This document shows positions 2,958 through 45,722 of a DNA stretch of 64,000 bases, in pieces. Made by a program: the position numbers and the translations under genes. The stretch spans positions 124,001 to 188,000 of the forward strand of contig WFMF01000194.1 in the NCBI GenBank assembly GCA_011033025.1. The letters run 5' to 3'. Positions within the stretch are counted from its first letter, which is position 1; every line of letters starts with the position of its first letter. This DNA is from Beroe forskalii. Lineage: Eukaryota > Ctenophora > Nuda > Beroida > Beroidae. Under the pieces are notes generated by a model. It had not been told where the DNA came from. It saw nothing but the letters and a program-made list of their open reading frames with translations, and did not search any database.

Positions 2958-4347
2958 GATCTAATGCAGAATGACATCTATTTGCTATTATCAAGCCAGT
3001 GCTATCAGCATGAACACTTGTAAACCAAACCTGACTTAATCTGCAGGCAAGCATCATCTTCCTCTGCAGTCTGATTGATGCCATGGGTGCTGGCAGCTCG
3101 CTGGTCCAGAGGGATCCTGGAATGGCTGGCCACTCTCAGCCCAGAATAATATCCCCCGCAGTTGGGTGGCCTAAAAACCACCCAGGAGTTCACACCCTTA
3201 GCCTAGCCTATTAGGGATAGTCTCCATGCTCACCATAGCTGTCACTGGCCTGGTCGATTAATGATAAGGGGCCATCCATGAAGGACGTCCGCAATGAGGG
3301 GGGAGGGGGGAGTCTGATCAATGCAGACGTTTAGGGACATAGCGGGGAGGGGGTGTTTGGCCAAATGCCGACGTCCGCAAATTATGGAAATTTTGGCTGA
3401 TTTGACGGTAATTTAACCAGAAAATCGTGAAATTTCGGTCCCAGAAATGATGAACCAAAAGATTTTCATGAAAAATGCGGACGTCCTTGGGGAGGGAGGG
3501 GTTTCTGAAATGCGGACGTTTGCGGACGAGGGGGGAGGGAGGGGTCTAAAATGGCCGAAAATTTGCGGACGTCCTTTATGGATGGCCCCTAATATAATAT
3601 AGACCGACTCTGGTCATTTTACTAAGACTAAGACCATACCTTATTTATGAGACTCAATTCAATTCAATTATAATGTTTTACAGCACTGAAATTAGAATAT
3701 ATTTTTCTGTTGCTTTATATAGAAGAAGCTTTTAGGTCATGCTGAGGGCGAGCACCAAGTCAAATCTAAAATCTGTTAATAGGGCCACCCATCAAAAGAC
3801 TAAAAATATGGCTATATAAAAACATAATGTCAGAGTGCATTACTGAGATCGGTGTCTGCAATTTCCACAAAACCACAATTTGTACCCGTGTGATACTGAT
3901 TTAACAGTATATTCACCTACGTACATGGCGCCATGCGATCGGAAATTTCAGAAGAATTGTCATTTCTCGAGGTGGCGACACCTGCCTTACTTTTAAACAG
4001 TAAAAATAAAAGACTATGCTGTATTGGGTAACTCCTCAAGTGCATTCCCCGGTACAATTTCGTAATTCGTGCATGCAATGTGTGCCTTTCATTGAGTGAA
4101 CCATGTGACTGTTTCATTGAGTGAACCATGTGACTGTTTTGGTTTGTTATAACATTCTCTCACTCTTTGCACATTAGGAATGGCACAAGAATGCAGGAAC
4201 ACAAGATCTTTCAATCATGATCAGACTTTTCACAGATGAACATGAAATTTGGAATCCAATGTTTTATCTATAAAGGTGTATTGGTATACTAAAATCATAA
4301 CAAAATAAAGTATAAAGTATAAAACTTTTTGCTTTACAGCAAAACGG
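2958..4347 (-). mobile_element. 5' leader of the LINE
   Basis: Sequence upstream of ORF2. It aligns, reverse-complemented, with the plus-strand copy at 8086-8948, and both copies begin at the same base (AACCGTTTTGCTGTAAAGC). That shared start marks the 5' end of the element. It holds only short reading frames. One (3084-2890) ends in a Cys/His-containing tail and overlaps the ORF2 start; it may be a degenerate ORF1 end or a leader ORF. A small DNA transposon (3268-3589) interrupts it. Confidence 0.7.
3268..3589. mobile_element. MITE family A (Harbinger-like), 322 bp, inside the LINE leader
   Basis: Terminal inverted repeats start GGGGCCATCCATgaaGGACG and close with the complement. The element is flanked by TAA on both sides. 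The uninterrupted LINE copy near 8690 has this trinucleotide once, which proves a 3-bp target duplication. Subterminal G-runs alternate with the word GCGGACGT. The 3-bp duplication and GGG-starting ends fit PIF/Harbinger; it has no coding capacity. Confidence 0.85.
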
Positions 4348-4577
4348 TTCCACAACAAACTCTTCACAAAACTTCATCATTCATTTCAACACATGTTACA
4401 ATGTGTTCATGGTTTCATAACTAAAATGCAACATGAAGTACTTCAATATCAATTAACACCCCTATCTAGGTTCTGCGAGTCATCATTTAACCAAAATTTA
4501 CAAATGAATAAATTGCGGTACAAGCTTGAAATACTTAGAAATACATGCTTACTATATTAATATCATTATTATAGTTC

Positions 4578-5649
4578 ATCTTCTTTGTAGAACAAATACA
4601 GTCATCTTTGTAGTCAAGCCACAGAACTCTCCAACAACTCCAACCATAGTCTTTGACGGGATCCATGAAAGAAATGCCTTCATCAGAGAGCGAGGCAGAT
4701 CCAAATAAAGCATGAGACACCAAAAATGATATGGTGTAATGAAAGCTAACACTGTGGCACACGGACTTGCGACCGTGTTGTGGGGTTGAATGCATTTGAC
4801 GGGCGCCCAACGCTCCCCCAACCACAAGATGTAGTGTGTTAGTTTCAGAAGCTCCAAGTTCATCAAGGAAATTAAGTTCATCAATGTCTTTATCCAGTGT
4901 AGGGAAGATAAAGTTCCATCTGGTCCTAACAAGATCAAAAGATCAAGTCGACTGTGTTTACTTGTAAACATAAATCAGGCTGCGACTCTGAAGACGAGAA
5001 TGAACCAGAGAAACAATGGGACTCCATTCTGGGTGACTTCACCCCTGCTTGCAGGGTTAAAAACATCTTCTTTGTAGAACAAATACAGTCATCTTTGTAG
5101 TCAAGCCACAGAACTCTCCAACAACTCCAACCATAGTCTTTGACGGGATCCATGAAAGAAATGCCTTCATCAGAGAGCTAGGCAGATCCAAATAAAGCAT
5201 GAGACACCAAAAATGATATGGTGTAATGAAAGCTAACACTGTGGCACACGGACTTGCGACCGTGTTGTGGGGTTGAATGCATTTGACGGGCGCCCAACGC
5301 TCCCCCAACCACAAGATGTAGTGTGTTAGTTTCAGAAGCTCCAAGTTCATCAAGGAAATTAAGTTCATCAATGTCTTTATCCAGTGTAGGGAAGATAAAG
5401 TTCCATCTGGTCCTAACAAGATCAAAAGATCAAGTCGACTGTGTTTACTTGTAAACATAAATCAGGCTGCGACTCCGAAGAGACGAGAATGAACCAGAGA
5501 AACAATGGGACTCCATTCTGGGCGACTTCACCCCTGCTTGCAGGGTTAAAAACATCTTCTTTGTAGAACAAATACAGTCATCTTTGTAGTCAAGCCACAG
5601 AACTCTCCAACAACTCCAACCATAGTCTTTGACGGGATCCATGAAAGAA
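4578..5649 (-). repeat. 488-bp tandem array, about 2.2 units, flanked by 13-bp direct repeats
   Basis: A landmark starting catcttctttgtagaac recurs at 4578, 5066 and 5554 (period 488), nearly identical. The 13-mer ATTATTATAGTTC lies immediately outside both ends (4565-4577 and 5650-5662), as a target-site duplication would. Each unit contains small hairpins such as CCCTGCAAGCAGGG and GATCttttGATC. Reading frames of about 130 codons recur in the units, but they have no recognisable domain and are probably fortuitous. The same repeat lies in the opposite orientation at 51015-52438. Confidence 0.88.
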
Positions 5650-5896
5650 ATTATTATAGTTCTTAAACTTGTCTGGCGTTGACAGACCCTCTCGAGAATC
5701 AGCGATGCGGCTGGCATCAGCGGGTCATACATCGTACGACAATCTTAAACAATATACACTTTGTCACTGTCAATTGCCAGGTTTCACAACACTTTAATGA
5801 GACACACGAGCTGATTGTAAAATACTTTCAAAGTACTTTGAAAACATCATCATCAGTGCTACAATCATATTTGAGGCTCCCATTGCATCAATTAGT

Positions 5897-6100
5897 TACC
5901 TTAGGAGGTGTATTTATAAAGGTTGTAATTTGGGGATTTTTCGGAAAAATCCCCATATTTTTACCCACCATGACAGTTCAAAATGACGTCATTATCATAT
6001 GTTAACTAGAGTAATGACTTGAGAAAGATCCCCAAATTACAATCTACCAAATTTGTAAACAACAAAATTTTACTCCACATAAATACACCTTTTAAGGTAA
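5897..6100. mobile_element. Small inverted-repeat element (MITE), about 204 bp
   Basis: Ends TTACCTTAGGAGGTGTATTT and AAATACACCTTTTAAGGTAA are imperfect inverted complements. An inner pair, TTGTAATTTGGGGAT and ATCCCCAAATTACAA, continues the pairing, so most of the segment can fold back. No coding content. Superfamily not assigned. Confidence 0.65.
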
Positions 6101-6504
6101 TTTAATATGTGTTGTGTTGTAAGTTTAAACAATAACATTATAATAAAGAACGAGGAATTTATACCAGTGATATAATAAAAACATAATAGCAGTGTTAATA
6201 TTATGAACTGCAATCGATTTTCTAATTCAAGGATTGATACAAGATGTGGAAAAGACTAAACTGTGAATCATCAGCGGTTGCCCTACAGTTGTTTGTCTGA
6301 CATGACGTCCGCGTCGCCTGACAGTTTTAAGGTTGATTTAGGTTTCCTTGTCATTTGTCCCACGTTTGTGTTGCGCGGCGCACTTCGCCGCTTCCTCAGG
6401 GATGCAAATGTTTTTTTAACCCGCAAAGGTATGTGTACGCATCGCGCGCTTGATCGGAGGAAGCGCGCCGCGAATGAACGCAAACAGGGAAATACTATAT
6501 CTGT

Positions 6505-6690
6505 TTAGCTTGCCCTAACCAGGACCCTGGTTAGTGGTTACGCGCACGGAGTGCGCGGCATGGGCAAGCGTATCGACACCCCTGGTTAGGGGAACCAGGG
6601 CCCTGGTTAGGGGAACTGTTTAGCAAATTACACACATGACACCGAAACCAGGGGCGCCGCGCACTCCGTGCGCGTATGCGTAACATTGTC
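6505..6690. repeat. GC-rich palindromic repeat with CCTGGTTA and CGCGCACGGAGTGCGCG words
   Basis: Contains repeated CCTGGTTAGGG / CCCTAACCAGG words, a GCTTGCCC...GGGCAAGC inverted pair, and CGCGCACGGAGTGCGCG with its complement about 150 bp away. A second region made of the same words lies at 50085-50345. Probably a foldback element; boundaries uncertain. Confidence 0.55.
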
Positions 6691-7090
6691 AGACGTTGCC
6701 TGACCTCTTCGCCTAAATTTAAATTAAATATTGATTAAGGTAAATTGGTATTACTTGCTCGGTAGTTTTAGAGTTATTGATTATATTCTATAATGTCATT
6801 ATATTTACAGACCTGAAGATGTCGTAGAACGACGAAATTGATTGTCATCAAAGAACCACTTCGTTTACATTTGTATTTGTACCATTGAGTCAAAAGAGAA
6901 TTAACAAACGAAACTACTCATCGATATGTTTTAAGGTGACAATGTCTGTATGCTGTGCACACAATCCAAGGTCTTATCTATGTTGAATATGAATTCCCCT
7001 AGTGGGGGGCCTTGTTAACAGTCTGTATGATTGGCTCAGTGCTTTCCCAATTGGGAAATATATTTTATTTTATTTTATTTTGCTGTGATT

Positions 7091-7465
7091 TATTTGAATT
7101 AAAAAGAAATCTTTCTTCACGACATCAATTTGCAAGACTTTTCTCCAACTCCATACTTGAACACCAACATGATTCCTTTAGGTAATGCAATGTGGAGAGC
7201 AGTACAGGGGCATGTCGAACTCATATGTGCATGGCTTTTACATGCTCTGCGTAATCGTGCGCGGCTTGCTGCCTGTTATATACAGGCAGTAAGCAGCGCA
7301 CAATAATGCCACGCATTGAAAAGCCACACATATATGAGCCACACATATATATATACACGCCACCGGTAGGATCTTAATGAGTCACACCAAGATGAGTGGT
7401 GTGCAGGCATCTTCAGTCCAATACCTACCTCAGCTTTCGGGGTGTTTAATTGTGCTGCAAAAATT
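7091..7465 (+). repeat. Interspersed repeat R1, copy 1 (interrupted by a MITE)
   Basis: First copy of a repeat of about 200 bp starting TATTTGAATTAAAAAGAAAT and including GAGTCACACCAAGATGAG. Other copies lie at 9093-9290, 9600-9770, 12594-12790 and 13098-13262. A 161-bp element (7205-7365) splits this copy. No coding content. Confidence 0.75.
7205..7365. mobile_element. MITE family D, 161 bp, inserted in repeat R1
   Basis: Flanked by GTA on both sides. The uninterrupted R1 copies read gagagcaGTAggatc with a single GTA, so this is an insertion with a 3-bp target duplication. It is a foldback: CAGGGGCATGTCGAAC start, inner arms around ATGGCTTTT / AAAGCCAC and CTGCCTG / CAGGCAG. A relative with the same CAGGGGCRTGTCGAAC end lies at 60255-60400. 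Confidence 0.75.
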
Positions 7466-8085
7466 AATTTCAAATTCAAATTCATGTTGAACTTGATTGC
7501 TTATAGCATTGACTGAGGGGGCCCCCCTAGTGAAACACTTAAAATGCAATAATGGTTTCAAATCAGATCTACTTTTCACCACTGATTTACTGCCAGTGTT
7601 TCACTGAAATGATCAATCACTTCTAAAATGATCAATCACTTCTAACATTGAGTTTTAAACTTTACAACACTACTTTATACAATCAAATTTGAGCAGGTTA
7701 AAGACCCCTCATGTCGAACAAGGGAAACAAACAAGGAGATTCAAATAAGAAAGGCAGTACAATCAGGGTTAGTAATCCACTTTGTTGTTGAAAAGCCTAA
7801 GCTGAATTGGTTCCTGTACTAGATCTCTTTTGATTTTGTTAAGAAGGCCAAACCTGACCTCACATGACAGTGATACCCCAGCTTAAACTAATATATTCTT
7901 TTCGTTAATAAATAGATGTGCAGCTATGATGATTCCCCAAATCTTCAAAAATATCAATGTTATAATTCTTTAAAATTGTATAACCTTGAAATTATTGATG
8001 ATTTGATATTGATATAATTTATATTTATTGATTGATAGTACAAATAATAAAATAGTTGTTTGATTAAAAATAGTTGTTTGATTAA

Positions 8086-9035
8086 CCGTTTTGCTGTAAA
8101 GCAAAAAGTTTTATACTTTATACTTTATTTTGTTATGATTTTAGTATACCAATACACCTTCATAGATAAAACATTGGATTCGAAATTTCATGTTCATCGG
8201 TAAAAAGTTTGATCATGATTGAAAGATCTTGTGTTCCTGCATTCTTGTGCCATTCCTAATGTGCTAAGAGTGAGAGAATGTTATAACAAACCAAAACAGT
8301 CACATGGTTCACTCAATGAAACAGTCACATGGTTCACTCAATGAAAGGCACACATTACATGCACGAATTACGAAATTGTACCGGGGAATGCAAATGAGGA
8401 GTTACCCAATACACATAGTCTTTTATTTTTACTGTTTAAAAGTAATGCACTCTGACATTATGTTTTTACATACCCATACTTTTAGTCTTTTGATGGGTGG
8501 CCCTATTAACAGATTTTAGATTTGACTTGGTGCTTGCCCTCAGCATGACCTAAAAGCTTCTTCTATATAAAGCAAGAGAAAATATATTCTAATTTCAATG
8601 CTGTAAAACATTAAAATTGAATTGAATTGAGTCTCGTAAATAAGGTATGGTCTTAGTCTTAGTAAAATGACCAGAGTTGGTTTATATTATATTATCATTA
8701 ATTGACTGGGCCAGTGGCAGCTATGCTGAGCACGGAGACTATCCCTAATAGGCTAGGCTAAGGGTGTGAACTCCTGGGTAGTTTTTAGGCCACCCAACTG
8801 CCAGGGATATTCTGGGCTGAGAGCAGCCAGCCGTTCCAGGATCCCTCTGGACCAGTGAGCTGCCAACACCCATGGCATCAATCAGACTGCAGATTAAGTC
8901 AGGTATGGTTTACAAGTGTTCATACTGATAGCACTGGCTTGATAATGCTTAAATTTTTCAATTCCCTTCACTTCCTGCTTCAGCTATTAGATTGAAATTT
9001 GAATAAAACCTTTTAAATTGAATTGAATTCAAACA
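8086..9035 (+). mobile_element. Internally deleted LINE copy (5' leader joined to a probable 3' end)
   Basis: Starts at the same 5' base as the minus-strand LINE (complement of 4347) and follows its leader to about 8948. It then jumps, without endonuclease or RT sequence, to an AT-rich tail with AATAAA and a short ATTGA repeat ending near 9030. The leader is uninterrupted here, which gives the empty site for the MITE at 3268. That the tail is the LINE 3' end is inferred; the reference 3' end lies outside the window. Confidence 0.55.
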
Positions 9036-9092
9036 TATCTAAATTTCACCAAACAGTTTGAAATCTTCAAATTTTCGATCATATTTTTTGGA

Positions 9093-9290
9093 ATATATTG
9101 AATTAAAAAGAAATCTTTCTTCAAGACATCAATCTGCAAGACTTTTCTCCAACTCGGTACTTGAACACCAACATGACCCCTTTAGGTAGTACAATGTGGA
9201 GAGCAGTAGGATCTAAGTGAGTCACACCAAGATGAGTGGTGTGCAGACATCTTCAGTCCAATACCTACTCCAGCTTTAGGGTGTTTACAG
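9093..9290 (+). repeat. Interspersed repeat R1, copy 2
   Basis: Uninterrupted R1 copy that gives the empty site for the MITE in copy 1. A shorter third copy follows at 9600-9770. Confidence 0.7.
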
Positions 9291-9599
9291 TTTAAATTGC
9301 AAGAGTTTTTATGAGGTTGGCCCCCAGCAGTCACCCTCTTATACCAGGGTACAGCACCGTCAAGTGCAGTGACCACCTGCCTGAATGAAACTGAAACTTG
9401 CTCTATGGTCTTTGTCTTTACTCCAAGCATCAAGAAATTAAGCAACACACTGAATAAAGAGAAGTAGAGGACCGGTGGATGGATCCGGGTTATTTGTGAC
9501 CTTTCACGTTGCACATTAATAAAAAAATTAATGCAAGTGGCATGTATCCTGATCCAATACCCCATCTTGAGAGATGCTTCTCCTGAAAATCAGGGTTGA

Positions 9600-9770
9600 A
9601 ACATATTTGAATTAAAAAGAAATCTTTCTTCAAGACATCAATTGCTGCAAGACTTTTCTCCAACTCTGTACTTGAACACCAACATGATCCCTTTAGGTAA
9701 TGCAATGTGGAGAGCAGCAGGATCTTAATGAGTCACACCAAGATGAGTGGTGTGCAGGTATCTTCAGTCC
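9600..9770 (+). repeat. Interspersed repeat R1, copy 3
   Basis: Same opening words and the same internal ATGAGTGGTGTGCAGG segment as the other R1 copies. It ends at TCAGTCCAA, where unrelated AT-rich sequence starts. Confidence 0.65.
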
Positions 9771-9984
9771 AAATTTACAATTTTTGACACAATTTTCGAC
9801 ATTTTTTTGCCAGAAATTCTCGGTATTTTTAGCAAAATTTTCAGAAAACCAACTCAAAAACACCATTTTTCAGCACCATTTTAAAAAACTTACCTCAATA
9901 TTCTCATAAATTTTTCCAAAGTTGAAACATAATCATTTTTAAAGTATTTAACTGTACATTTTCCTCATTTTCAACTCAAAAAGG

Positions 9985-10128
9985 TGGGGGGGGGGGTTAA
10001 CCCATGATAACGTAATATTCTCCTCAAGAGAGGGGGGTTGGGCTTTGATTACGTTTGATTACCAGGGGGAGGGAGGGGGGGGGTTGAAAATGGCCAAAAA
10101 TTGATTTCATAATATGTGAACGGTCCCC
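9985..10128. mobile_element. Degenerate MITE-B right end
   Basis: G-rich runs alternate with GATTACGTTTGATTACC and end in CATAATATGTGAACGGTCCCC, a diverged form of the family B terminus at 25314. No matching left terminus is visible. The duplicate copy is at 13482-13613. Confidence 0.6.
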
Positions 10129-10542
10129 TGTTATCAATTATATGAATAACATAAAATTATTGCAGTAGGTTACTAGGTTTAGATACTTCCCAAGGAAGAA
10201 AATATAGGCTAGCAGAAACATTGTCAACATGCCTGCAAAGCCATATATACTTGTTTATGTGAGTACACCATTCTACTAGGCAATAGTTGTGGTGAATTTA
10301 GTTTTGTTTGTAAAAGTTCAAATTAAGTGACATTTATGATACTAAAGCTTTTATCAAAAAAGGAACTTATGTGATGCTTGCTTCTCATATCATAGTATTT
10401 TATAAGAGCTTTCTCTGTCCACTTGAACTTAGTGTGCAGATTGTAGAATTGATTATATTTGAAAATAATAATCCTATGTTGTACCTATGGCTCTATGGAG
10501 TACATGTGTACCTTCATTGCACACAAATTTCTTTCTTTACAG

Positions 10543-10582
10543 GTCTTCATCGGAACAATACTCTTTAGAGAGGGAATCACTG
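10543..10582 (+). CDS. Candidate 40-nt internal exon (duplicated)
   Basis: Preceded by a pyrimidine-rich acceptor (ttctttctttacag) and followed by GTAAGTTTA, a strong donor. It encodes VFIGTILFREGIT in one frame or SSSEQYSLERESL in another; the third frame is stopped. The length is not a multiple of three. An identical exon with the same splice sites is at 14030-14069 in the second duplication unit. The gene is not identified; it could belong to the LDL-receptor-domain gene downstream or to a different transcript. Confidence 0.4.
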
Positions 10583-13481
10583 GTAAGTTTAAGTCCAAAA
10601 TCAAAATTCTTTTGATATAATTATGACATTGTGCACCAATAGGATATCATACATCCTGATTTAATTCTCTTGCAGCATGGCAGTTTATTGTCCAGTCCTG
10701 GCCCCATGGACAGGTGCAAACAAACAATTGTAGAAACAGCTAAGACCCCAACTAGTTGGCACCTACCACTATGTATGTACCATGGTACTAATTGTCCTAA
10801 CAAGTCAGTACCTACAGCAGTGGGTACTTATTAGTTTGAACAAGTACTGTGGTTCTTATCATGGTATGTCAATACTTATCCTAAATATTTTGTACCCGCT
10901 GCAGTATGTTCCGCCTCTTCAAAAACATTGCATAATTCAATATCATAGCAAATATGGGATGGAATAGTTAATTAATTGTTGCCTTAAAAACTTAAAGTGG
11001 TTAATATGGTTTCAATGGGCAAGGTTTATAGACTAATATGTATAATGGTCAACAATTATCCCATAGCGTAATTTTACATGTACTGTAGCCAATTATTACA
11101 TATTCTGGGGCATAGGAATCACACTTGCTGGGGCTATTGTGTGAACCGAAACAGAAAATGTGAAGCCAGTTGTTATATGTTAAGCAAGGTGAGGAGTTTA
11201 TTCTAAGTGGCTACTGTGTGAGATTCACTAGGATGGACAGTTTGGAGGTGTTTGATAGGGTAGATAAAGTAATTTCAACTAGAAACTTATTTATTTATTG
11301 AATCATAATTCACACTTCATGTGCAGTCTTTCCCGAATTTCTCGAAAAAGACCGGAACAATGGTCTATGATCAAGCGAATTGAAAGCAAACTCAAATATG
11401 TTGTTACTAATTGGAATGTTGTTACTAATTGGTATCTACGGTAGTAGGTACTATGGTAAGTAGGTACCAACTATAGTTGTGGTCTTGGACAGCTACATGA
11501 AAGTAATTGTTTTTTTATTTACTTTCCGAGTGATCTTTCCGAAATTAAAATAAGATGCTTATAACATGATCAAATAAATGTCAGCTCAGTAAGCATGCAG
11601 AAGGGGGACAAGGGGATCCAAGTTCGATTTCAGGTTTTTGATGTTTTTGAATTTCTGATAGCTAGCATAACGCCAGTTACCAGTAGGTTTTCACCCCATG
11701 AAAAAAAAGCTTCAGAGTTTGCTCCTGTCCCGAAAATGGTCACAAATAGTGATTTTCGATTTTCAAAAAGTCGATAATTTCACTTCTGAGGCCTGAATCA
11801 AAAATCGGAACGATTACAGGCGAACACATGTATGAAAAATTCAAAACTTCGACTAGGAACAATATTTCTTCATGGGGCGCGCACCGCGCAACGCAGACAG
11901 GGATATACGTGTTTAGCAACTCTCTGCCCTGCTCGTGCCCCGGCTGTTAAACTTAGTTGCACATCTTACCATAACACTGGCTTTAACAAATTGAGGGGAT
12001 TCACAAGGGGGTCTATTAAAGCCCTAAGCGAATTGGTTCCTGTACTAGGATCTCTTTTGATTTTGTTAAGAAGGCCAAACCTGACCTCACATGACAGTGA
12101 TACCCTCAGCTTAAACTAATATATTCTTTTCGTTAATAAATAGATGTGCAGCTATGATGATTCCCCAAATCTTCAAAAATATCAATGTTATAATTCTTTA
12201 AAATTGTATAACCTTGAAATTATTGATGATTTGATATTGATATAATTTATATTTATTGATTGATAGTGAACTCCTGGGTAGTTTTTAGGCCACCCAACTG
12301 CCAGGGATATTCTGGGCTGAGAGCAGCCAGCCGTTCCAGGATCCCTCTGGACCAGTGAGCTGCCAACACCCATGGCATCAATCAGACTGCAGATTAAGTC
12401 AGGTATGGTTTACAAGTGTTCATACTGATAGCACTGGCTTGATAATGCTTAAATTTTTCAATTCCCTTCACTTCCTGCTTCAGCTATTAGATTGAAATTT
12501 GAATAAAACCTTTTAAATTGAATTGAATTCAAACATATCTAAATTTCACCAAACAGTTTGAAATCTTCAAATTTTCGATCATATTTTTTGGAATATATTG
12601 AATTAAAAAGAAATCTTTCTTCAAGACATCAATCTGCAAGACTTTTCTCCAACTCGGTACTTGAACACCAACATGACCCCTTTAGGTAGTACAATGTGTA
12701 GAGCAGTAGGATCCAAGTGAGTCACACCAAGATGAGTGGTGTGCAGGCATCTTCAGTCCAATACCTACTTCAGCTTTTGGGGTGATTAAATTGCAAGAGT
12801 TTTTTATGAGGTAGGCCCCCCAGCAGTCACCCCCTGGTACCAGGGTATAGCACCATCAAGTGCAGTGACCACCTGCCTGAATGAAACTGAAACTTGCTCT
12901 TTGGTCTTTGTCTTTACTCCAAGCATCAAGAAATTAAGCAACACACTGAATAAAGAGAAGTAGAGGACCGGTGGATGGATCCGGGTTATTTGTGACCTTT
13001 CACGTTGCACATTAATAAAAAAATTAATGCAAGTGGCATGTATCCTGATCCAATACCCCATCTTGAGAGATGCTTCTCCTGAAAATCAGGGTTGAAACAT
13101 ATTTGAATTAAAAAGAAATCTTTCTTTCAAGACATCAATTGCTGCAAGACTTTTCTCCAACTCTGTACTTGAACACCAACATGATCCCTTTAGGTAATGC
13201 AATGTGGAGAGCAGCAGGATCTTAATGAGTCACACCAAGATGAGTGGTGTGCAGGTATCTTCAGTCCAAATTTACAATTTTTGACACAATTTTCGACATT
13301 TTTTTGCCAGAAATTCTCGGTATTTTTAGCAAAATTTTCAGAAAACCAACTCAAAAACACCATTTTTCAGCACCATTTTAAAAAACTTACCTCAATATTC
13401 TCATAAATTTTTCCAAAGTTGAAACATAATCATTTTTAAAGTATTTAACTGTACATTTTCCTCATTTTCAACTCAAAAAGG

Positions 13482-13613
13482 TGGGGGGTTAACCCATGAT
13501 AACGTAATATTCTCCTCAAGAGAGGGGGGTTGGGCTTTGATTACGTTTGATTACCAGGGGAGGGAGGGGGTTGAAATGGCCAAAAATTGATTTCATAATA
13601 TGTGAACGGTCCC
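13482..13613. mobile_element. Degenerate MITE-B right end, duplicate copy
   Basis: Second-unit counterpart of 9985-10128. The G-runs are shorter here, the main difference between the two copies. Confidence 0.55.
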
Positions 13614-14029
13614 CTGTTATCAATTATATGAATAACATAAAATTATTGCAGTAGGTTACTAGGTTTAGATACTTCCCAAGGAAGAAAATATAGGCTAGCA
13701 GAAACATTGTCAACATGCCTGCAAAGCCATATATACTTGTTTATGTGAGTACACCATTCTACTAGGCAATAGTTGTGGTGAATTTAGTTTTGTTTGTAAA
13801 AGTTCAAATTAAGTGACATTTATGATACTAAAGCTTTTTATCAAAAAAGGAACTTATGTGATGCTTTTTGCTTCTCATATCATAGTATTTTATAAGAGCT
13901 TTTCTGTCCACTTGAACTTAGTGTGCAGATTGTAGAATTGATTATATTTGAAAATAACAATCCTATGTTGTACCTATGGCTCTATGGAGTACATGTACCT
14001 TCATTGCACACAAATTTCTTTCTTTACAG

Positions 14030-14069
14030 GTCTTCATCGGAACAATACTCTTTAGAGAGGGAATCACTG
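14030..14069 (+). CDS. Candidate 40-nt exon, duplicate copy
   Basis: Identical to 10543-10582 including the acceptor and donor. If both copies were included in one mRNA, the 80 nt would shift the frame differently from a single copy, so at most one inclusion pattern is likely to preserve the reading frame. Confidence 0.4.
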
Positions 14070-15659
14070 GTAAGTTTAAGTCCAAACTCAAAATTCTTTT
14101 GATATAATTATGACATTGTGCACCAATAGGATATCATACATCCTGATTTAATTCTCTTGCAGCATGGCAGTTTATTGTCCAGTCCTGGCCCCATGGACAG
14201 GTGCAAACAAACAATTGTAGAAACAGCTAAGACCCCAACTAGTTGGCACCTACCACTGTATGTACCATGGTACTTGTCCTAACAAGTCAGTACCTACAGC
14301 AGTGGGTACTTATTAGTTTGAACAAGTACCGTGGTTCTTATCATGGTATGTCAATACTTATCCTAAATATTTTGTACCCGCTGCAGTATATTCCGCCTCT
14401 TCAAAAACATTGAATAATTCAATATCATAGCAAATATGGGATGGAATAGTTAATTAATTGTTGCCTTAAAGTGGTTAAAATGGTTTCAATGGGCAAGGTT
14501 TATAGACTAATATGTATAATGGTCAACAATTATCCCAAAGCGTAATTTTACATGTACTGTAGCCAATTATTACATAGTCTGGGGCATAGGAATCACACTT
14601 GCTGGGGCTATTGTGTGAACCGAAACAGAAAATGTGAAGCCAGTTGTTATATGTTAAGCAAGGTGAGGAGTTTATTCTAAGTGGCTACTGTGTGAGATTC
14701 ACTAGGATGGACAGTTTGGAGGTGTTTGATAGGGTAGATAAAGTAATTTCAACTAGAAACTTATTTATTTATTGAATCATAATTCACACTTCATGTGCAG
14801 TCTTTCCCGAATTTCTCGAAAAAGACCGGAACAATGGTCTATGATCAAGCGAATTGAAAGCAAACTCAAATATGTTGTTACTAATTGGAATGTTGTTACT
14901 AATTGGTATCTACGGTAGTAGGTACTATGGTAAGTAGGTACCAACTATAGTTGTGGTCTTGGACAGCTACATGAAAGTAATTGTTTTTTTATTTACTTTC
15001 CGAGTGATCTTTCCGAAATTAAAATAAGATGCTTATAACATGATCAAATAAATGTCAGCTCAGTAAGCATGCAGAAGGGGGACAAGGGGATCCAAGTTCG
15101 ATTTCAGGTTTTTGATGTTTTTGAATTTCTGATAGCTAGCATAACGCCAGTTACCAGTAGGTTTTCACCCCATGAAAAAAAAGCTTCAGAGTTTGCTCCT
15201 GTCCCGAAAATGGTCACAAATAGTGATTTTCGATTTTCAAAAAGTCGATAATTTCACTTCTGAGGCCTGAATCAAAAATCGGAACGATTACAGGCGAACA
15301 CATGTATGAAAAATTCAAAACTTCGACTAGGAACAATATTTCTTCATGGGGTAAAAAACCGACTGGAAGCTGGCATTCTGCTCTATCAGAAACACAACAA
15401 CACAAAGATTGACATCGGACCCCCGCCCCCCTAACGTAAGAAGCTTGTGAGGGACATAATCATTTATGTTATGTCATATGGGAATCACCCATCAGGCATC
15501 AATGTAGGTATTATGAGAAGCATTTGTTAGCATAATTTGAATCAAGATGATAGATTTACATATTGAATTATTATAAAATTCTTCCCTTTAAATTTACCTT
15601 GTTGATGCAACTCAAACTCTGCATTTCAAGGCAGTTTACCAATAATTGCACACCTCCAG

Positions 15660-15776
15660 ATGGTTGTGAAGCCCACCAGTTCGAGTGCAGTGATGGGATG
15701 TGCATCATGCTGTCCTGGCTGTGTGATGGCACTCCCGAGTGTGATGATGGCGAGGATGAGACCTTCTGCCTCCCAG
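15660..15776 (+). CDS. LDL-receptor class A domain exon 1
   Basis: Phase 1-1 exon of 117 nt between AG and GTAAG encoding one LDL-receptor class A module. The six cysteines fall in family order: GCEAHQFEC, DGMCI, WLCDG, PECDDGEDE, FC. The acidic CDDGEDE end is the calcium-binding part. Such modules occur in extracellular parts of receptors, matrix proteins and secreted proteases. The next visible exon (17254) carries a second module in the same phase, so both belong to one plus-strand gene. Start, remaining exons and overall product are not visible. A longer 5' extension through an in-frame stretch from about 15635 is possible. Confidence 0.85.
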
Positions 15777-17253
15777 GTAAGTTATTTGACATCGTAATAC
15801 AAACAAACCCCGTTTACGTGGCCCAGGATGAAATGTTTTACATCAGAACTTCCTACTAGTCGTGTTACCTCATACTTTGTCTACTCTCCAGCCTGTTTTT
15901 ATTTCCTCCAGTTTCCTGCTGTAAGATGTATGTGACTCATATCTTAGAATTTTAAAACCTCCTCATATTTTTTCCTCTTACCAAGACGCATCAGCTATGA
16001 TCTTATGGATATCATTTACTTTGACCAATCTTCGCGAATAGTAACGTCACTCTGGCCGCAGACCTTGGCATGTATCCAAGGACTGCCATTGGATACCAGT
16101 GCTGGATACCTAGACTTGTTTACCAGCTGCCAGGTTACACGGCCCTACACTGCCAAGGTTTAAAACAACGTTACAGTCTTAGAGAGGTCATGAGTATCAG
16201 TTAAAAGTTAGCTGTGTTTATATCTGTGTCCGTGGTTACTGCCCGTAATATACGCATAGTGTAGGATGTCTGGCTGAGTACACGGCAATCCACCGACTTT
16301 TTGATTCGACGCAGCTCATTATACCCCTGGAGAAGGGGTGAAATTAGTTGTGTAAAATGTGTTGTAACTTGGAGGAAACATCTAAGTTGCATAGTCCTCG
16401 AATTTAATTGCCTTCTAATCTCCTTTAAATGGCTTATATAATACCTACTTGGTACTTTGTTTTCAACTTACAAATTGTAACCTTACAAAATGTATTGAGT
16501 TTTCGTGATTATGACACAGGAAAACTAGTGTTTTATAAGCAGCCTGTGTTGCAGTTAAAATATTATGCACAATTTGAGCGAACCAATACACTAAATCGCC
16601 CATTTCCAGAATCTACTACTTCTCAGAATTCAGAATAGCTTGATGGTAACGTTTAATAATGCTACCAAATGAGTGCCTTGTTTTCATTATTTCCAAATCC
16701 GCCACCCTTGTATGATTACAGAGACACAGACTACCGCAATTTGTGTTGACTGCCTTATAAGGCCGAAATAAACAATTAATAAATTAATTTATTTTCTTTG
16801 ATCGTACAGAACTGTCTGCTACACTGTAAAATATCCCTGAAGAACGTGACTGACTGTTTAAAAGCATTATACATTTAAGATATAATCATGTTGTTATTAT
16901 TATTATTATCTAAAAGGGTACCTAATGAATTAAAAAACCGTGCCGAAATGAAAATTGCCTATTCCCAAAATGGTACCATATACAATTTTAATCGTTTCTT
17001 CTTTTACTGTAGAAATTTGGCAGATTTCTAAAATGGCACCATTTTTTGGGAATTCCGGGCCTTTAATCCATGAAATACCGCACATTTTTATGCTGTACAC
17101 ATAGGTTTTAACCACGCTAAACCCCTGAGTGGATATGAAAAAAGTTGAAACGGGTTGTAATTTTTCGGGGTTCATAGGAGATTTTGGGCGTTGCCCCTAT
17201 CTACCCCTAATTACATCTCACCCAGCACCTTCCATCACCTAACCCTGTTGCAG
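15777..17253 (+). other. Intron of the LDL-receptor-domain gene
   Basis: About 1.5 kb between the two class A exons. No other exon was recognised. Includes a short ATT microsatellite near 16890-16910. Confidence 0.6.
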
Positions 17254-17367
17254 ATGTAACGTGCAGTAACGAAGAGTGGCAATGTAAGGACGGTGTCTGT
17301 ATCCCGACCTTCTTCAAGTGTGACAAAACACCTGATTGTGAAGACTGGTCTGACGAAGAACAATGCA
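17254..17367 (+). CDS. LDL-receptor class A domain exon 2
   Basis: 114-nt exon between a strong acceptor (ccctgttgcag) and donor GTAAGTAA, phase 1-1. Reads VTCSNEEWQC, DGVCI, FKCDK, PDCEDWSDEE, QC: six cysteines and the conserved acidic calcium-binding end. It joins the exon at 15660-15776 in phase. No further class A module was found downstream to about 18 kb, so the gene must continue into exons I could not recognise or beyond a long intron. Confidence 0.87.
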
Positions 17368-18059
17368 GTAAGTAATCTCACTGTTGTTATTCACTTCATA
17401 ATATTTCAGTAAAAGAGTCTGCTGATTACAGTGCGAACTAGTGTCAAGGTCATTATGATAACTGATCCAATGTATGGTATGTAGTAGATACTGGTATCAA
17501 TTCGAGACCAGATTCATCCACTTCAAGTGAGCATTTCCAGTAAATATCCTTTGGGCGTCTCTGCCTCGGTGGCTTGAACTGCAAATAAACCCAGCATATT
17601 AAGATGGGCTATTGGGCTTGAGGATAAGCTTTGAAAAGAAAAAAACCTTGCCTAGTGTCAAGTTGAACTGGTGTTAAGGAAAATTGGTGTTCTGGAGAAT
17701 TGGTCCATCAAAGCTCATTTAAACATTTAAGCTGGTTTCGCAATGCCACACGGTTGGTCAGCCTTGCTTTTCCAACCTGCAAGGTTTGTGAAACTCAAAT
17801 ATCCAAATCGTCCTTTGGTGGTAGTTGACACAAATGTTCGTTGGAAGACCATCCGTCCAGTGCTTTCAGTTCTACACGATTTAAATAAAAGAAGAAAGTC
17901 ACATAGCCTCCCCCTCAATACATCATAGTCACATCCAGCATTCTTTGTAAAGTTTTATTAAATGGCATTGATTAATTATTGCATTTCTTTAGTGTGATTT
18001 ATGGTATAATTAGGATCCAATAAATATTGTAAATCTAGCACTCTACTAGTCCAGGATTT

Positions 18060-18255
18060 GGGAAGTTTAACTTCCCATAAACTGAGGGAGTATTGTTGTT
18101 GCGGGAGAATGTTGTGGCTAGTGAGAAGTACTGTAGCAGATGTTGGTAATAGTTCAGGAGGAGGGAAGTTCAACTTCCCACAAACTGAGGGAGTAGTGTT
18201 GTTATGGGCACTGAGAATGTTGTGTGAGAAGTAGCAGATGTTGGTAATAGCCATC
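18060..18255 (+). repeat. Two-copy tandem repeat, about 100 bp
   Basis: GGGAAGTTTAACTTCCCA and the following sequence to GATGTTGGTAATAG recur once with small differences. Each copy opens with the perfect inverted pair GGGAAGTT/AACTTCCC. The stretch from 17368 to here, and from 18256 to 19735, shows no gene I recognise. Confidence 0.75.
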
Positions 18256-19735
18256 ACATACACCCCCTCAGAAGTATGTCACCAAGATAGGGATAATGGG
18301 TATATTCCTGTCATATTCCCCCTGTCAGATATTATTTATCTCGGCACCGTGCCAGGGTTATATGCATGCGCTCTGTTATTATAATACCATGGCACAATTC
18401 CAGGAATCTGTGTCTCGGAGAAGTTGCTGTGACAGGTGCCACGTGACTTCCCCACTGATCACGTGACTCCTCTGACAGGTCATGTGACCGGGTTAAGCAA
18501 CTTCACATTTGTCACAATGTGTCTGGTTACAGGCACAGCTGTGCGACGTGCGTGGGCCTATCCGTCTAGAGGGGTCAAAAGTTGACTCATGAAAGTCTCG
18601 TACAGAGTCTAGAACATGGAGATTGGAGAGTGTTCTTGAAAATTCTTGTAAGGTACCAATTATGGCTAAAATCTTAAAAGGTTCCATTCACCAAATGATT
18701 AAATGACGAATCTTCCTTTTGTAAGTCTCTCTCAAATGCGAGAGTTGATGTTCATCAGAAGCTCAACCTTTCAGAAGATTATGGTAACTTTCTACTGACT
18801 AGTGAGTAGTTAACTCTGTCCTGACGTAGTGAAGCATATGTCGTATAATTGTAGCATCTGACCGTCATAAGTCCGTTGGTACTGCTACGAACAAACGAGT
18901 TAACCCCACCCCAATTAGTGTGTACAGTGGCCTAAGATACATTAGGTAAATTAAGGTTGGAGACACTCTCAGTCAGAACAGAACCACTGGGATATGCTGT
19001 ACTAATTAATCACAAGTTCTCTGGCTTGTGACCAAACTTGTAAAAGTGAGGGGTATCCTCTGAAAAAATTCCAGAAAAAGGTCCAGCTGAGCGAATCGCT
19101 GGAACCTGGAAGTATCAAGCCAGCTAACTGATACCTCACTCGTACAGTCCTGCCGTGCTTCATTCGTCAGATAAACGTGAAATTCCCACATGCATAATGA
19201 ATGCCCCTTGTATGAGGCTTTATGAGAATCTATCGCTCGTGTTAGGGTGAGCAGAATATAAGAATGCATAAACATAATATGGATGTGAAAACTGAGGGAA
19301 CCTTACAATACTTTTATTAATACAGTAATACACAGTTCCGTGTATTAAAACATTAAAAGTTTGAATGGCTCCCATGTGAACGTAACTTTGTGAAGGAGCG
19401 TCTTTTCATTATCTGCTTTGATACCAAATGGTCTGTTACGTCATGCAATATAATTGAACCAGCATGACTCCATAGTGCATACAAAATGTCAGGTTCAGCC
19501 ACATTTACGCTGCCTCCAGCGATGTGGAATTTCTTTGAACGATTGCATTATGGGCAAGTTCTAGGGGTATGTACTAGTTGCTTACTTGTATGTAATACCT
19601 GCTTTGTTACAGCTTTACAGGAGTAACAGAGTGAGTGTGTTGGACTGAGACACACATCTCCTAGTGGGTGGTGGGTATGAATACTAGTATGACATGCATG
19701 GTAGTATGCCAATATATGGTGTGCATTATTATACG

Positions 19736-20233
19736 CTTAGAGCATGGCTGGGAATGCGCTAATGTACGATTAACAAACGAATGGGAGTGTGTTATCGAAA
19801 ATTATCACACGAGGCGTCAGCCGAGTTTGACAATTTTCGATAACACACGATCCATGAGTTTGTTAATTGTATTATTACCCGACAAAACAGTAATCCCTCC
19901 CACTCGGGTCTGACGACCCTCGTCTGAATTCAACGTTTTTATAGATTTTGAGTGCTCCTTCATAAAATCAACAATTTATTCAACGATATTCTTCTCAATT
20001 ATTCCGCCACTGTACAGTAGTTCTATAAAAGAGTGATATATCGATAATTATAACACTGGAGTTTGAGCCACGGGAGGGTAATAATAGAAATTATTGCACG
20101 AGGCGTAGCCGAGTGCAATAATTTGTATTGTCGCACGAGGAGCAGGCCGAGTGCGACAATACCAAATTATTGCACGAGGCGAAGCCGAGTGCAATAATTT
20201 TATTAGCGTCATGACCATTTGCCATGCTCTTAG
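19736..20233. mobile_element. Inverted-repeat element E with serial hairpin modules, about 498 bp
   Basis: Ends CTTAGAGCATGGC and GCCATGCTCTTAG are near-complements. Inside are four hairpins (19789-19846, 20088-20124, 20125-20162, 20164-20200). Each has a different stem but the same apical sequence of the form CACGAGGCGNAGCCGAGTG. No coding content. Confidence 0.7.
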
Positions 20234-20449
20234 TGTATTAGCCAATGTGAGGAGTGCAATATTGAACGATTAACTAACGAATGGGAGTGTTATAAGCAGT
20301 AAAAGGCTTAGTTTTGTAGAGAAATCATAATATCCAGGCTACCGACTGGCTTCGGCAGGGTTAAGACATCTTTATGTGCACGACGATCCCCTTTACATCA
20401 TTCTCTAAAATAACATAATTAAATTTGATATCCTGATAATAATAATCTA

Positions 20450-20560
20450 AAATAATTTAAAATAAATGAAATAAGTATCAATTATAAAATAAAATAAAAA
20501 TATCAACTAAAAAATATCAACTAAAAAATATCAACTAAAAATATATAGCATTATACGTTA
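20450..20560. repeat. Low-complexity AT tract
   Basis: Runs of AAATATCAACTAA and related words. Nothing else was seen between 20300 and 20775. Confidence 0.6.
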
Positions 20561-20775
20561 ATACGTTATACAGTGTATGTATATCAAACAGCACGGCAAG
20601 CAACAGAGCAAGACTGAATACAAGAACCGTAACATAAACAACGCCTTGAAACGAAACCTCTGATCAAATTAGATAAAGTACATGGAGGTGTATCAAGTAA
20701 TCAATACATCTCTACATTCTCTACCGAATTTTCTCATTAGCTCATGTCTACTGACAATTAATGCATACATCTTAC

Positions 20776-21245
20776 TTATATCGAAAATTATCACACGAGG
20801 CGTCAGCCGAGTTTGACAATTTTCGATATAACACGATCCATGAGTTAGTTAATTGTATTATCACCCGACCCTACTTGGCTAGACCTAGCTGCTTCTGATT
20901 TCGGTATTTACGCTGCCTACATCAGGATTCTAGCTCTTTTCTTCAGGATTCAGCCAGGGCTAGCCATACAACAGTATTTTCTTCCACTCGGGTCTGACGA
21001 CCCTCGTCCGGATTGAACGCCTTTATAGATTTGCAAGTGCTCCTTTATCAAAATTTCTTTCAAGTTTTTTCTGCACTCATTTTTTCGGGATGGCTGTTTA
21101 CCGCCTAGATTTGGTTTTATATTTGGGCTTCATTTGCTCCTTTAGAAAATTTTTGCGCGCGCCACTATACAGTAGTTTTAAAGGGGTGATATATCGATAA
21201 TTATCACACCCGAATTATAATCACGGGAGGGTGATAATACTTATT
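20776..21245. mobile_element. Second copy of hairpin element E (partial)
   Basis: Begins with the hairpin at 20776-20831, whose apical part is identical to that at 19789. It then shares CCACTCGGGTCTGACGACCC and the distal TATACAGTAGTTTTAAA-type segment with the first copy. Ends near GGAGGGTGATAATAC; the terminal repeats are not both visible. Confidence 0.6.
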
Positions 21246-21733
21246 ATTGCACGCCTACAAGTACCCTCAAAATTGGCTAATAGCAGTTTACTCATATTGC
21301 ATTTGATATCAGTAGAGTTTCAGACGCCCCTTCCTCCCTATTCCTGGGATCAGAACTAATGGACAGCTTTTAAATAACACCTCATCATTCACTATGCCTA
21401 CTTGCTTTGCGAATATTATAATGCATTTTGCCTTTTGTCGTAGCGGTTATATTTGTGGTAATTTTGAGTTCGAACTTTTACTTCACTATATCATAAATAA
21501 TGATCGACATAAATAATGATGATATTGGAATATCACGTTGAAGCTTCTTGGACCTATTGGCCCTGTAAGTAACCATTTCCTCGTCAATGAACACTTCAAC
21601 TGAATAAATACTGAGTACATTTCATTGTCAGTAAACCGAGCGACTCTCTTATCCGACACAGACTGTTTGGTATGCACTAACCACTGAATCATAAACATCT
21701 TCCTGTGCTAGCTTAGCAGAGTTTATCATTCGG

Positions 21734-22156
21734 TTAAATAGCGACGTGCCATAAAGGTTGAGAACCATCGGTATCCACGCCAGTATTGCTAGAAAATACA
21801 TTTACTGTTTGCTTACTCGGGAAAAAGTGTCTGATCAATACCTTGATGTTATCAGGTAGAGGGTAAGTGAAGTTTACCCTGTTGGAGCAAAACAGGTTAA
21901 CGTAATGTTCTCTGGGTCGGTTTTTTGCATTTATGATGAAAACCCAAGACCCGCAGTCTAGCTGCAGCACAACAGAGCTACATACAGTAAAATCTTCTGA
22001 GTATGTACATGATAGGGGAGGAAGTGGGTCCCCTAACTTGTGGACATAGATACCGAAGTAGTCGCCAATTAACTGCTCACTACTTATCAGCTGGCAATAG
22101 GATGTTTTTAATGAATCATCCATGATGATTGGGAAGTTGGGAGTAAGGACTCCCAA
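21734..22156 (-). CDS. Hypothetical protein, 140 codons
   Basis: An uninterrupted minus-strand frame starting MGVLTPNFPIIMDD, with balanced composition and several cysteines, ending HVAI then stop. It contains segments that look coding (LQLDCGSWVFIINAKNRPRE) but no motif I can place. The 5' side faces a 40-bp minisatellite at 22217. It may be a single-exon gene, one exon, or a chance frame; no splice evidence decides. Confidence 0.3.
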   Translation of the reverse strand: MGVLTPNFPIIMDDSLKTSYCQLISSEQLIGDYFGIYVHKLGDPLPPLSCTYSEDFTVCSSVVLQLDCGSWVFIINAKNRPREHYVNLFCSNRVNFTYPLPDNIKVLIRHFFPSKQTVNVFSSNTGVDTDGSQPLWHVAI

Positions 22157-22216
22157 TCAAAAACTGAGTGAAATTATGGAATCCTCCACTAAAACTGATG
22201 GGGAGCAAAATCTCAA

Positions 22217-22517
22217 CCACGGAGTCAAACACTGAGGGTAGTACGTGTTGAGCTAGAGATTAGCGTCAAACACTGAAGGTAGTAAGTTTGAGCTAGAGGT
22301 TAGCGTCAAACACTGAAGGTAGTAAGTGTGAGCTAGAGATTAGCGTCAAACACTGAAGGTAGTAAGTGTGAGCTAGAGATTAGCGTCAAACACTGAAGGT
22401 AGTAAGTGTGAGCTAGAGATTAGCGTCAAACACTGAAGGTAGTAAGTGTGAGCTAGAGATTAGCGTCAAACACTGAAGGTAGTAAGTGTGAGCTAGAGAT
22501 TAGCGTCAAACACTGAA
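22217..22517. repeat. 40-bp minisatellite, about 7.5 units
   Basis: Unit begins GCGTCAAACACTGAAGGTAG and ends GTGAGCTAGAGATTA. Central units are nearly identical; the first and last are diverged, as expected for unequal crossing-over in the middle of an array. Confidence 0.92.
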
Positions 22518-23049
22518 AGGAAATAAAGTGGTAAGTGTTGAAAAACACTGTAAAATGCTCTGATGATAACTGAGTTAAAATGCAGCAGCTGTATATATGT
22601 ATATATACTAAACTGTATATATACTAAACCCCTGCTTCTAGATACGTCACTACGTCAGCATCACGTATCCCATCATGGTCTTGATACTGATGATTGGAAT
22701 GTCCCCACCTTGCCACATGCCGCATGCAATGATTGCAATGATCACCTAAGGGTAGGACCTTCCTGCGTGATGAGACTCTCCATCTGGCTGTGACGAAGTA
22801 CAGGAGTGGAAGAAACCTGAACGGTGTCTGATGACGCTACCAAATTTCTCCGAAGATATATGAAATATCAACTTAATCTAATTTATTGTGGTAAGTCAAT
22901 CATAGTCAATCATAGCAATCTTTTTTATGGGCTGGGAGAAGGTGGGACAACGCTTGTCCTCCAATCATCAAACACGTTGATTTTATCAATTGGAAACAAA
23001 TCCTCACGGGCGGAAATGAGTGAATTCTACAAATACATTTGAGTCGTTA

Positions 23050-23900
23050 GAAATGAAATTTGGGCAATTTTAAAATTCGACCTTTTTGGGCCTTTTTTTT
23101 CGCCCATCATCGTAGGGCCCAAAGTGACCAAGACTCCTAAAAACAATCTAGGGTAACTCGTATTAGCTATACTATTATGTTCCAACCATTTGTAGACATT
23201 TTCAGGCTTTAGAACACGCAAAAAACGGTTTCTCAACATTTCTTCAAGTGTATCCATATTTTCTCAAGTCCATTTACTCATTTGGATAAATAAATTTCAC
23301 GGGCAGAAAAAGTGAATTGCGGTTTTAAAACCACACAGAATGCTTCTTAAGATATCTGTAATTATGGTCTTAAAACCACACAGAAAGCTTCTAGAGGATG
23401 TCTCAATAAATGTGCATTGCACATGTATTGAGACATCTCTATCGATGCACATTGCACATTGTGCAATGCGCATCGATGGAAATTTGAAAATTCGGCCCTT
23501 TTTGGAATTTTTTCTCCCATTGGAGGCTCTAAAGTAACCAAGGCTACTCTTAAAACCATCTAGACCAACCTGTATTTGCTCTACTATAATATTCCAACCA
23601 TTTTAACCATTTAAACACGTAAAAAACCATTTTCCTATTATCCCAAGCTGTACCCACATTTTCTCACTTGGGTGCATCACCTTGTTAGTCGAATTTTAGC
23701 AATTTCCGGTCTAAAAACTATGCAGAATGTGTCCTAGGATGTCTACAAACACATTTGAGTCGATAGAAATGATTTTGGGTTTCAAAATTCGGCCTTTTGG
23801 ACCTTTTCCGCCCATTTAAGGGCCCAAAAATGACTGAGACTCTTAGAAGCCATCCAGGGAAACTTTTTATTAGCTTTTCAGTCATTATTCTATCAGTTGG
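23050..23900. repeat. Diverged tandem repeat, three copies
   Basis: Three related blocks (about 23050-23290, 23470-23660, 23750-23900). Each has an AAATTCGRCC-TTTTTGG stretch, a CGCCCAT/CTCCCAT word, AAGTGACC-type sequence and a mention of CACACAGAA nearby. Copies differ substantially; no coding content. Confidence 0.55.
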
Positions 23901-24120
23901 AGTCACTTTCAAGGAATTGAGAAAATTTTCTCAACTGGATCCAGTTCACTCGTTTATAATGAGCGCGCGCGGATTTTCTCAAATTGTATCCAACTCGCGG
24001 AATCATCTACTGACAGGAACGCGCGAGATCCTTTTGTATATAAAAACTTTGAAATCAATCTCACTGTCCGGCTTGCCGCGCGGCGCGGTGGTATAATAAG
24101 CGGGCCGCGTGCGAGCCTTA

Positions 24121-25314
24121 GGGATCGTTCACATATTACGTAATCAGCCGAGGGGGGGAGGGGGTTTCCAAATGATTACGTTTGATTACGAGGGGGGGAG
24201 GGGGGGTTTGGCCAATGATTACGTAATCAAAATATCTAAATTTTCATGAAAATTTCATGATTTTATGAAAATTTCACGAATTTTCATGAAAATTTCAAGA
24301 ATTTTCATAAAAATTTCACGAATTTTCATGAAAATTTCAAGAATTTTCATGAAAATTTCAAGAATTTTTTATGAAAATTTAAAAGATATCCGAATTTTTA
24401 TAACCAAAAATTAACCATTTGCAGAAAAAATTGTCAAAATTTCATAATTATGATTAAAACTCAATGTGGTTCAGAATGTATAGTTCCTTTAGTGCTGCCC
24501 GTAGAGGACTTAAAGGAGGGATGTACTCCATTCGTTGAACTCTTCCAAACCACTTCAGTGCCTCTTTGTATATAAGGTTTGCTGCTCTGTGCTTGATCAG
24601 AGGTTCGGAGGCCTTTCATTCCCTAGAGCTCTAGAGTTGATGCCAGAGCAGGTCTTGGCGTACATCCGCAGCTCCATTATCCAGGAATCAATCTTTTTGA
24701 TGAAGGTGTAGGAAGCTGCAGTTGTCTGTGAAGTAGCTGGACTCTGATCTGGCACTTAGGGGCTAGGGCTGCTCTGGATCTTGGGTTCTGTCGGCTTTGG
24801 TGGCAGATGACAGGACACGGATACTAAACTTTGGTTCCATCGGTTTTAAAGGAGGTTGAGGTGGGACCAAGATGTTGACTTCTGGCTCTTTAGTGGAACT
24901 GGGGGCCTCAGGTGTAGAGGAGGAGGAGGATGATCTGTTGGAGGTAAAGGAGGATGATGAGCAGATGAGGATGCGTTGGAGGAAGAGAAAGAGGAGGAGG
25001 TGTCCATCTCATTGTTAGAGAATTGTCGTAGGCGAGATTTCCATAGGAAAAACTAAATGAAGCTTTGAATGTCATCTTCAAGTCGATGATGTTGATGATT
25101 GAATTGAAACACACGATACTGTTCTAATTTTTTGTCAGTTAATATAGTTTTTTTGGTGACGTCAAAAAACTGAAGGAGGGGGGGGGTTGGGCCATGATTA
25201 CGTAATATTTTCCGAAAAAGAGGGGGGGTTTGGCCATGATTACGTTTGATTACGGAGGGGGGGAGGGGGGTAAAAAATGCCCAAAAATTGATTACGTAAT
25301 ATGTGAACGATCCC
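24121..25314. mobile_element. MITE family B1 (Harbinger-like), 1194 bp, TTA duplication
   Basis: Terminal inverted repeats GGGATCGTTCACATATTACG and complement, flanked by TTA on both sides. Subterminal zones alternate GATTACG words with GAGGGGGGGAGGGGG runs. 24235-24390 is a run of the palindromic word TTTTCATGAAAA. The middle (24430-24650, minus) holds a coding-like stretch (LIYKEALKWFGRVQRMEY, then LRAALKELYILNHIEF and a stop) that is out of frame with a similar stretch upstream. It may be a remnant of a captured host gene or of a decayed element protein. Elements with the same ends lie at 37032, 46124 and 47087. Confidence 0.88.
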
Positions 25315-25383
25315 TTATTATGCCAGAAGGCATCTCAGAACAAATCAGACCAGAAAGACTCCAACTCACACGTGTCGTATTAT

Positions 25384-35911: not shown

Positions 35912-42930
<7,019 letters not shown>

Positions 42931-45690: not shown

Positions 45691-45722
45691 ACATTATAAA
45701 TTGAATTATCACACCTTTATAG

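Follow-up and report, generated by a model that had tools for sequence, protein, structure and literature searches.

Two families of miniature inverted-repeat transposable elements (MITEs), A and B, each represented in a 64,000-nucleotide stretch of the ctenophore Beroe forskalii (contig WFMF01000194.1, positions 124,001 to 188,000; hereafter the window), share a common frame and a layout of nine half-sites in which the central word is specific to the family, and both are flanked by 3-bp target site duplications (TSDs). The repeated unit is a 7-bp half-site, TG-NNN-AC, with CGG as the word in A and ATT in B, and a third family of the same genome, C, has the same layout with the words ATG and CTG. 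As a whole, the explanation that we find rather probable is that the families had a common ancestor whose half-sites were read by a Myb/SANT-like protein, and that a change in the specificity of this reader led to the family words.

The words at the right ends had been described in an initial annotation and are indeed present: the 20-mer of A begins at 3510 and that of B at 25236, both unique in the window and offset by one and two bases, respectively, from where they had been placed. As had also been described, the pattern continues in both families through a G-run, a AAAATGGCC/AAAATGCCC spacer and a third word before the terminal inverted repeat (TIR). The annotation covered right ends, and the same frame is found at the left ends of A and B. 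Consensus sequences were built from 11 copies of A (323 bp) and 32 copies of B (1185 bp). CGG occupies nine of the ten TGNNNAC sites in the A consensus and ATT nine of the 15 in that of B, the six others reading TGA (twice, once per TIR), GAA, GCA, GAC and GTG. The nine half-sites match between the two consensus sequences in place, order and strand, and lie at distances from the ends that differ by no more than 5 bp. Each TIR holds one half-site and each end a direct pair with a spacing of 10 bp; a head-to-head pair (TGNNNAC/GTNNNCA) lies close to the left end and a single additional site close to the right; the internal pairs are direct at both ends and the TIRs inverted. The replacement of CGG by ATT in every copy of the word, as originally claimed, holds for all nine half-sites of the consensus and fails for the A copy in the window, the left side of which has decayed (words CAG and CCG, with consensus half-site 3 lost).

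The A and B consensus sequences can be aligned beyond the TIRs, over about 110-130 bp at each end, the alignment being one of ends since the middles differ in length and were left out. The frames still align when the words and most G-runs are masked (0/1000 shuffles), and TTTGGCCAA and AAAATGSCC lie at corresponding places. Left end resembles left end and right end resembles right end across the families, and either likeness exceeds that between the opposite ends of one family, which argues against copying between ends. Judged by these end regions, A and B are related. It is highly improbable that A, B and C gained similar layouts independently under a spacing constraint: paired binding domains commonly use a 10-bp period and sites placed head to head, and C aligns weakly with A and B when the TIRs are set aside, but the masked A and B frames match, including the two motifs just named.

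Pattern searches of the genome (216 Mb in 1134 contigs), with reversed patterns as controls, count ends or modules rather than elements. The paired-word pattern ATGNNNACGTTTGNNNACG had 704 matches (13 reversed); among the 100 matches listed, 78 were ATT/ATT, 13 CGG/CGG and nine carried a changed word, and CGG was paired with ATT in none of these 100. The pattern TTTGGYCAA[N]TGNNNACGTNNNCA had 511 matches (0 reversed), while the TIR frame GGGNNCNNNCAYANANNACGTNNNCA, which takes A, B and C together, had 2367 (0 reversed), with 73 B-type, 25 A-type and two C-type ends among the 100 listed. Within each family, word positions vary less than frame positions, but we take this low drift as supporting evidence only, because copies were partly chosen by similarity or by a frame-holding pattern. 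Concert within a family could also arise without selection by a protein if a changed word had spread in a founder through slippage, the re-duplication of an end or gene conversion over short tracts; the words do recur at close range, and one founder would suffice. However, this is unlikely, as the side-specific frames have been kept across A and B better than between the ends of one family, so that conversion tracts would need to be of about 7 bp. One deviant word occupies two or more slots in none of the 32 B copies and in one of the 11 A copies, itself with five decayed slots, and no new word occurs twice within the nine changed pairs among the 100 matches listed (seven with one word altered and two with both altered differently).

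Family C (L069, 2323-2764, and further copies) bears on how the words may have changed. Its left end (L097) reads ATG, CTG, ATG and CTG/CTG. Its right head-to-head pair is CTG/CTG in L069, L084, L085, L091, L094 and L098 and CTG/ATG in eight copies within one larger repeat; the remaining right-end words are mostly ATG, with CTG in the right TIR of L085. The C TIR, GGGAGC[CT]GTCAYATATTACGTCATCA, has TTAC in its outer half, as B does, and TGAC in its inner half, and the direct pairs of C have dropped the GT after AC and kept TG-NNN-AC. Independent copies are L069, L084 (with L097), L085, L091, L094, L098 and L099, of which L097-L099 were picked via a variant TIR pattern, so that ATAAC in their TIR is a selected variant. 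In the few C copies checked, the flanks were TAA/TAA (L069) and TAA on the left with TCT on the right (the L097/L084 element). A C element also lies inside a larger dispersed repeat, with a common right flank in eight of the 12 fetched copies (L083, L086-L090, L092 and L093).

In the series ATT, ATG, CTG, CGG each word differs from the next by one substitution, and since the C words thus supply one-base steps between ATT and CGG, the change may have been stepwise. From the concerted change that was first proposed, the difference in concert across nine consensus half-sites stands, whereas a single all-at-once change has the ATG and CTG of C against it. Intermediates with mixed words that show gradual independent drift had been named beforehand as a refutation of the proposal, and C partly represents them, although its mixed words lie mostly in fixed slots. 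Family C weakens the all-at-once claim and not the family-wide word difference between A and B. A search for a fourth word by the TIR pattern with A or C before ACGT gave 81 matches, every one of which looked on visual inspection like a close variant of A, B or C. Paired words with A or C at the third place had five matches (0 reversed) and at the second place 17 (12 reversed), overlapping places being counted apart; a rare fourth word, or a word in a different frame, may conceivably exist.

Equal 3-bp flanks were found for 44 of 48 distinct two-ended elements (8 of 11 in A, 36 of 37 in B), counted without same-place duplicates and without loci lacking recognised paired ends within 2 kb; 33 of the equal flanks were TTA/TAA and the others mostly AT-rich triplets. 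Both families have 26-nt TIR matches at both ends. Duplications of 3 bp, mostly TTA/TAA, together with GGG tips suggest PIF/Harbinger, for which the literature gives a TSD of 3 bp, usually TWA (PMC4482050), and TIRs of about 25-50 bp (PMC9179366), a range within which A and B fall. These sequence features suggest that A, B and C are non-autonomous families of PIF/Harbinger type, presumably moved by proteins of that superfamily. They are short (A), non-coding, of high copy number and bounded by TIRs and TSDs, as MITEs are, B being long for a MITE. ISL2EU, our first guess, was ruled out by TSD length, 3 bp here against the two-base AT reported for ISL2EU, which has THAP and YqaJ and belongs to the same PHIS superfamily as PIF/Harbinger (PMC4482050).

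Profile searches of the genome gave three matches to PF13613, 35 to PF13359 (DDE_Tnp_4) at 32 loci and eight to PF13873 (Myb_DNA-bind_5), seven of the last lying 0.7-1.4 kb from a DDE_Tnp_4 match and marking seven two-gene PIF/Harbinger loci. The proposal that each family has its own transposase was followed as far as consensus sequences and 13 of the 32 DDE loci, where no autonomous partner appeared: no transposase gene lay between A, B or C TIRs within flanks of about 2-3 kb, TIRs farther out being missed. Twelve of these 13 loci were rescanned for Harbinger tips and three for flanked inverted repeats. At L069/L072 a C MITE lies upstream of the gene; L073 contains an A remnant, and at L080 the stop codon is followed, some 100 bp on, by a B-type MITE that has decayed. 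Of three two-gene loci scanned for ends, L077 (222-4287, TIR GGCCCRTATTCACCAA) and L081 (938-4906, TIR GGTCCRTATTACCCAA) are PIF/Harbinger elements with TAA flanks; at the third, L076, the inverted-repeat scan found no convincing ends. Within the outer 250 bp of both ends, ATTCACCA occurs six times in L077 and CCCTTAAG nine times in L081. Each thus repeats its own word (ATTCACCA and ACTTTAAA in L077 against CCCTTAAG in L081, with layouts compared by eye), so that two further Harbingers of the genome also have family-specific end words. Over the aligned stretches of L076, L077 and L081, identity is 56-61% among the DDE proteins and 39-48% among the Myb-like ones. L077 and L081 are not partners of A, B or C, but may represent another instance of word change, one for which the proteins are available.

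The reader of the half-sites could instead belong to the host, the half-sites being transcription factor sites (ACGT-centred palindromes, bZIP-like) that drive transcription, with different families using different host factors. While TTACGTAA and TGACGTCA appear similar to sites of the PAR-bZIP/C-EBP and CRE types, the direct pairs at 10-bp spacing form no ACGT dyads, those of C keep TG-NNN-AC despite having lost the GT, A is too small for a gene in need of a promoter, and GGACGTCC is not known as such a site; a host reader is very doubtful.

Under descent with a reader encoded by the elements, the ancestor of A, B and C would have had ends with nine TG-NNN-AC half-sites and G-rich runs between them, arranged as a head-to-head pair on the left, direct pairs separated by one helical turn (10 bp) at both ends, a single half-site within each TIR and an additional one towards the right end. 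A protein encoded by the elements, for which the Myb/SANT-like second protein of PIF/Harbinger is the likeliest candidate, would read the half-sites in pairs and would bring and position the DDE transposase at the ends. The specificity of this binder may have shifted in separate lineages, elements with matching half-sites having been amplified, and the triplet would have moved between ATT, ATG/CTG and CGG on an unchanged layout, any direction along this series being conjectural. Given that no A-, B- or C-bounded transposase gene was seen at the loci read, we infer rather than observe co-evolution with a binding protein. More tentatively, and with slightly less than even confidence, we propose that a transposon lineage splits into separate families by re-spelling the triplet in all nine half-sites, so that TGNNNAC serves as a private address and C is a two-word transitional state with a relaxed binder. 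The problem addressed is how a protein that fits many sites can change its specificity when each single-site change should be harmful; three families of the same layout, with words linked by single-base steps and one of them mixed, would offer a concrete path.

Table 1. Coordinates of family A and B features in the window
Feature	Position	Strand	Remarks
Family A MITE copy, 322 bp	3268..3589	+	TIR GGGGCCATCCATRAAGGACGTCCGCA; arms 31 nt, 94% complementary
TSD TAA, left of A	3265..3267		right copy 3590-3592
A half-site 1	3287..3293	-	TGCGGAC; left TIR
A half-site 2	3322..3328	+	decayed to TGCAGAC (consensus CGG)
A half-sites 4+5	3366..3379	+	head to head, TGCCGAC/GTCCGCA (consensus CGG)
A half-site 6	3476..3482	+	TGCGGAC
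A half-sites 7+8	3511..3527	+	direct repeat, 10 bp apart
A half-site 9	3564..3570	+	right TIR
Family B element copy, 1194 bp	24121..25314	+	TIR GGGATCGTTCACATATTACGTAATCA
TSD TTA, left of B	24118..24120		right copy 25315-25317
B half-site 1	24140..24146	-	TGATTAC; left TIR
B half-sites 2+3	24173..24189	+	direct repeat, 10 bp apart
B half-sites 4+5	24216..24229	+	head-to-head palindrome TGATTACGTAATCA
B half-site 6	25195..25201	+	
B half-sites 7+8	25237..25253	+	direct repeat, 10 bp apart
B half-site 9	25289..25295	+	right TIR
Short B-type MITE, 163 bp	37032..37194	-	TSD TAT
Solo B-type TIR	46124..46149	+	within tandem duplication; second copy at 47087

In the interior of the B copy (window 24440-25150) the minus strand contains coding-like stretches, such as 24454-24615, perhaps a relic or a gene fragment that was captured; five fragments of the B internal region gave no Pfam match above the cut-off, and its comparison with six Harbinger proteins no meaningful match. 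The solo B-type TIRs lie one in each copy of a tandem duplication of about 960 bp (window 45700-47500), and a direct duplication of about 3.5 kb (window 8766-12565 and on) carries a decayed B-type end twice, with TIRs at 10127 and 13613. Elsewhere in the window there are minisatellites of 40 bp (22209-22568) and 21 bp (33453-34046), tandem repeats of about 487 bp with the same open frames on opposite strands (4505-5651 and 51093-52354) and a 346-amino-acid open frame on the minus strand (53621-54661), which looks like a pogo-type transposase.

In the literature covered (titles and abstract openings, with subscription papers and Repbase reports outside it) no concerted word change of this kind was found, nor any paper on searching with the TIR letter strings, nor TTACGTAA in the context of a transposon. 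Among known systems, the PIF/Harbinger transposase is described as having no obvious binding domain, ORF1 binding the TIRs of Harbinger3N_DR (PMC2836001), and the Myb-like protein of Harbinger3_DR as recognising a 9-bp subterminal motif (PMC9710019). The families studied here are like zebrafish Harbinger3N_DR and rice mPing in their 3-bp TWA TSD, TIR of about 26-31 bp, non-autonomous state and subterminal motif, but differ in the nine half-sites of fixed layout, the G-runs and the wholesale difference in word between families. Ping, Pong and mPing are a further likeness, being families related to one another in which ORF1 and the transposase are separate proteins. The proteins of both Ping and Pong are reported to mobilise mPing (PMC2836001). 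Unlike these, the families A, B and C would presumably be kept apart by their words. The likeness in the word itself is to CACTA elements, a different superfamily, of plants and with a CACTA tip, in which a subterminal word is likewise repeated and specific to the family, as in En/Spm with its TNPA motif and in other families with repeats of their own.
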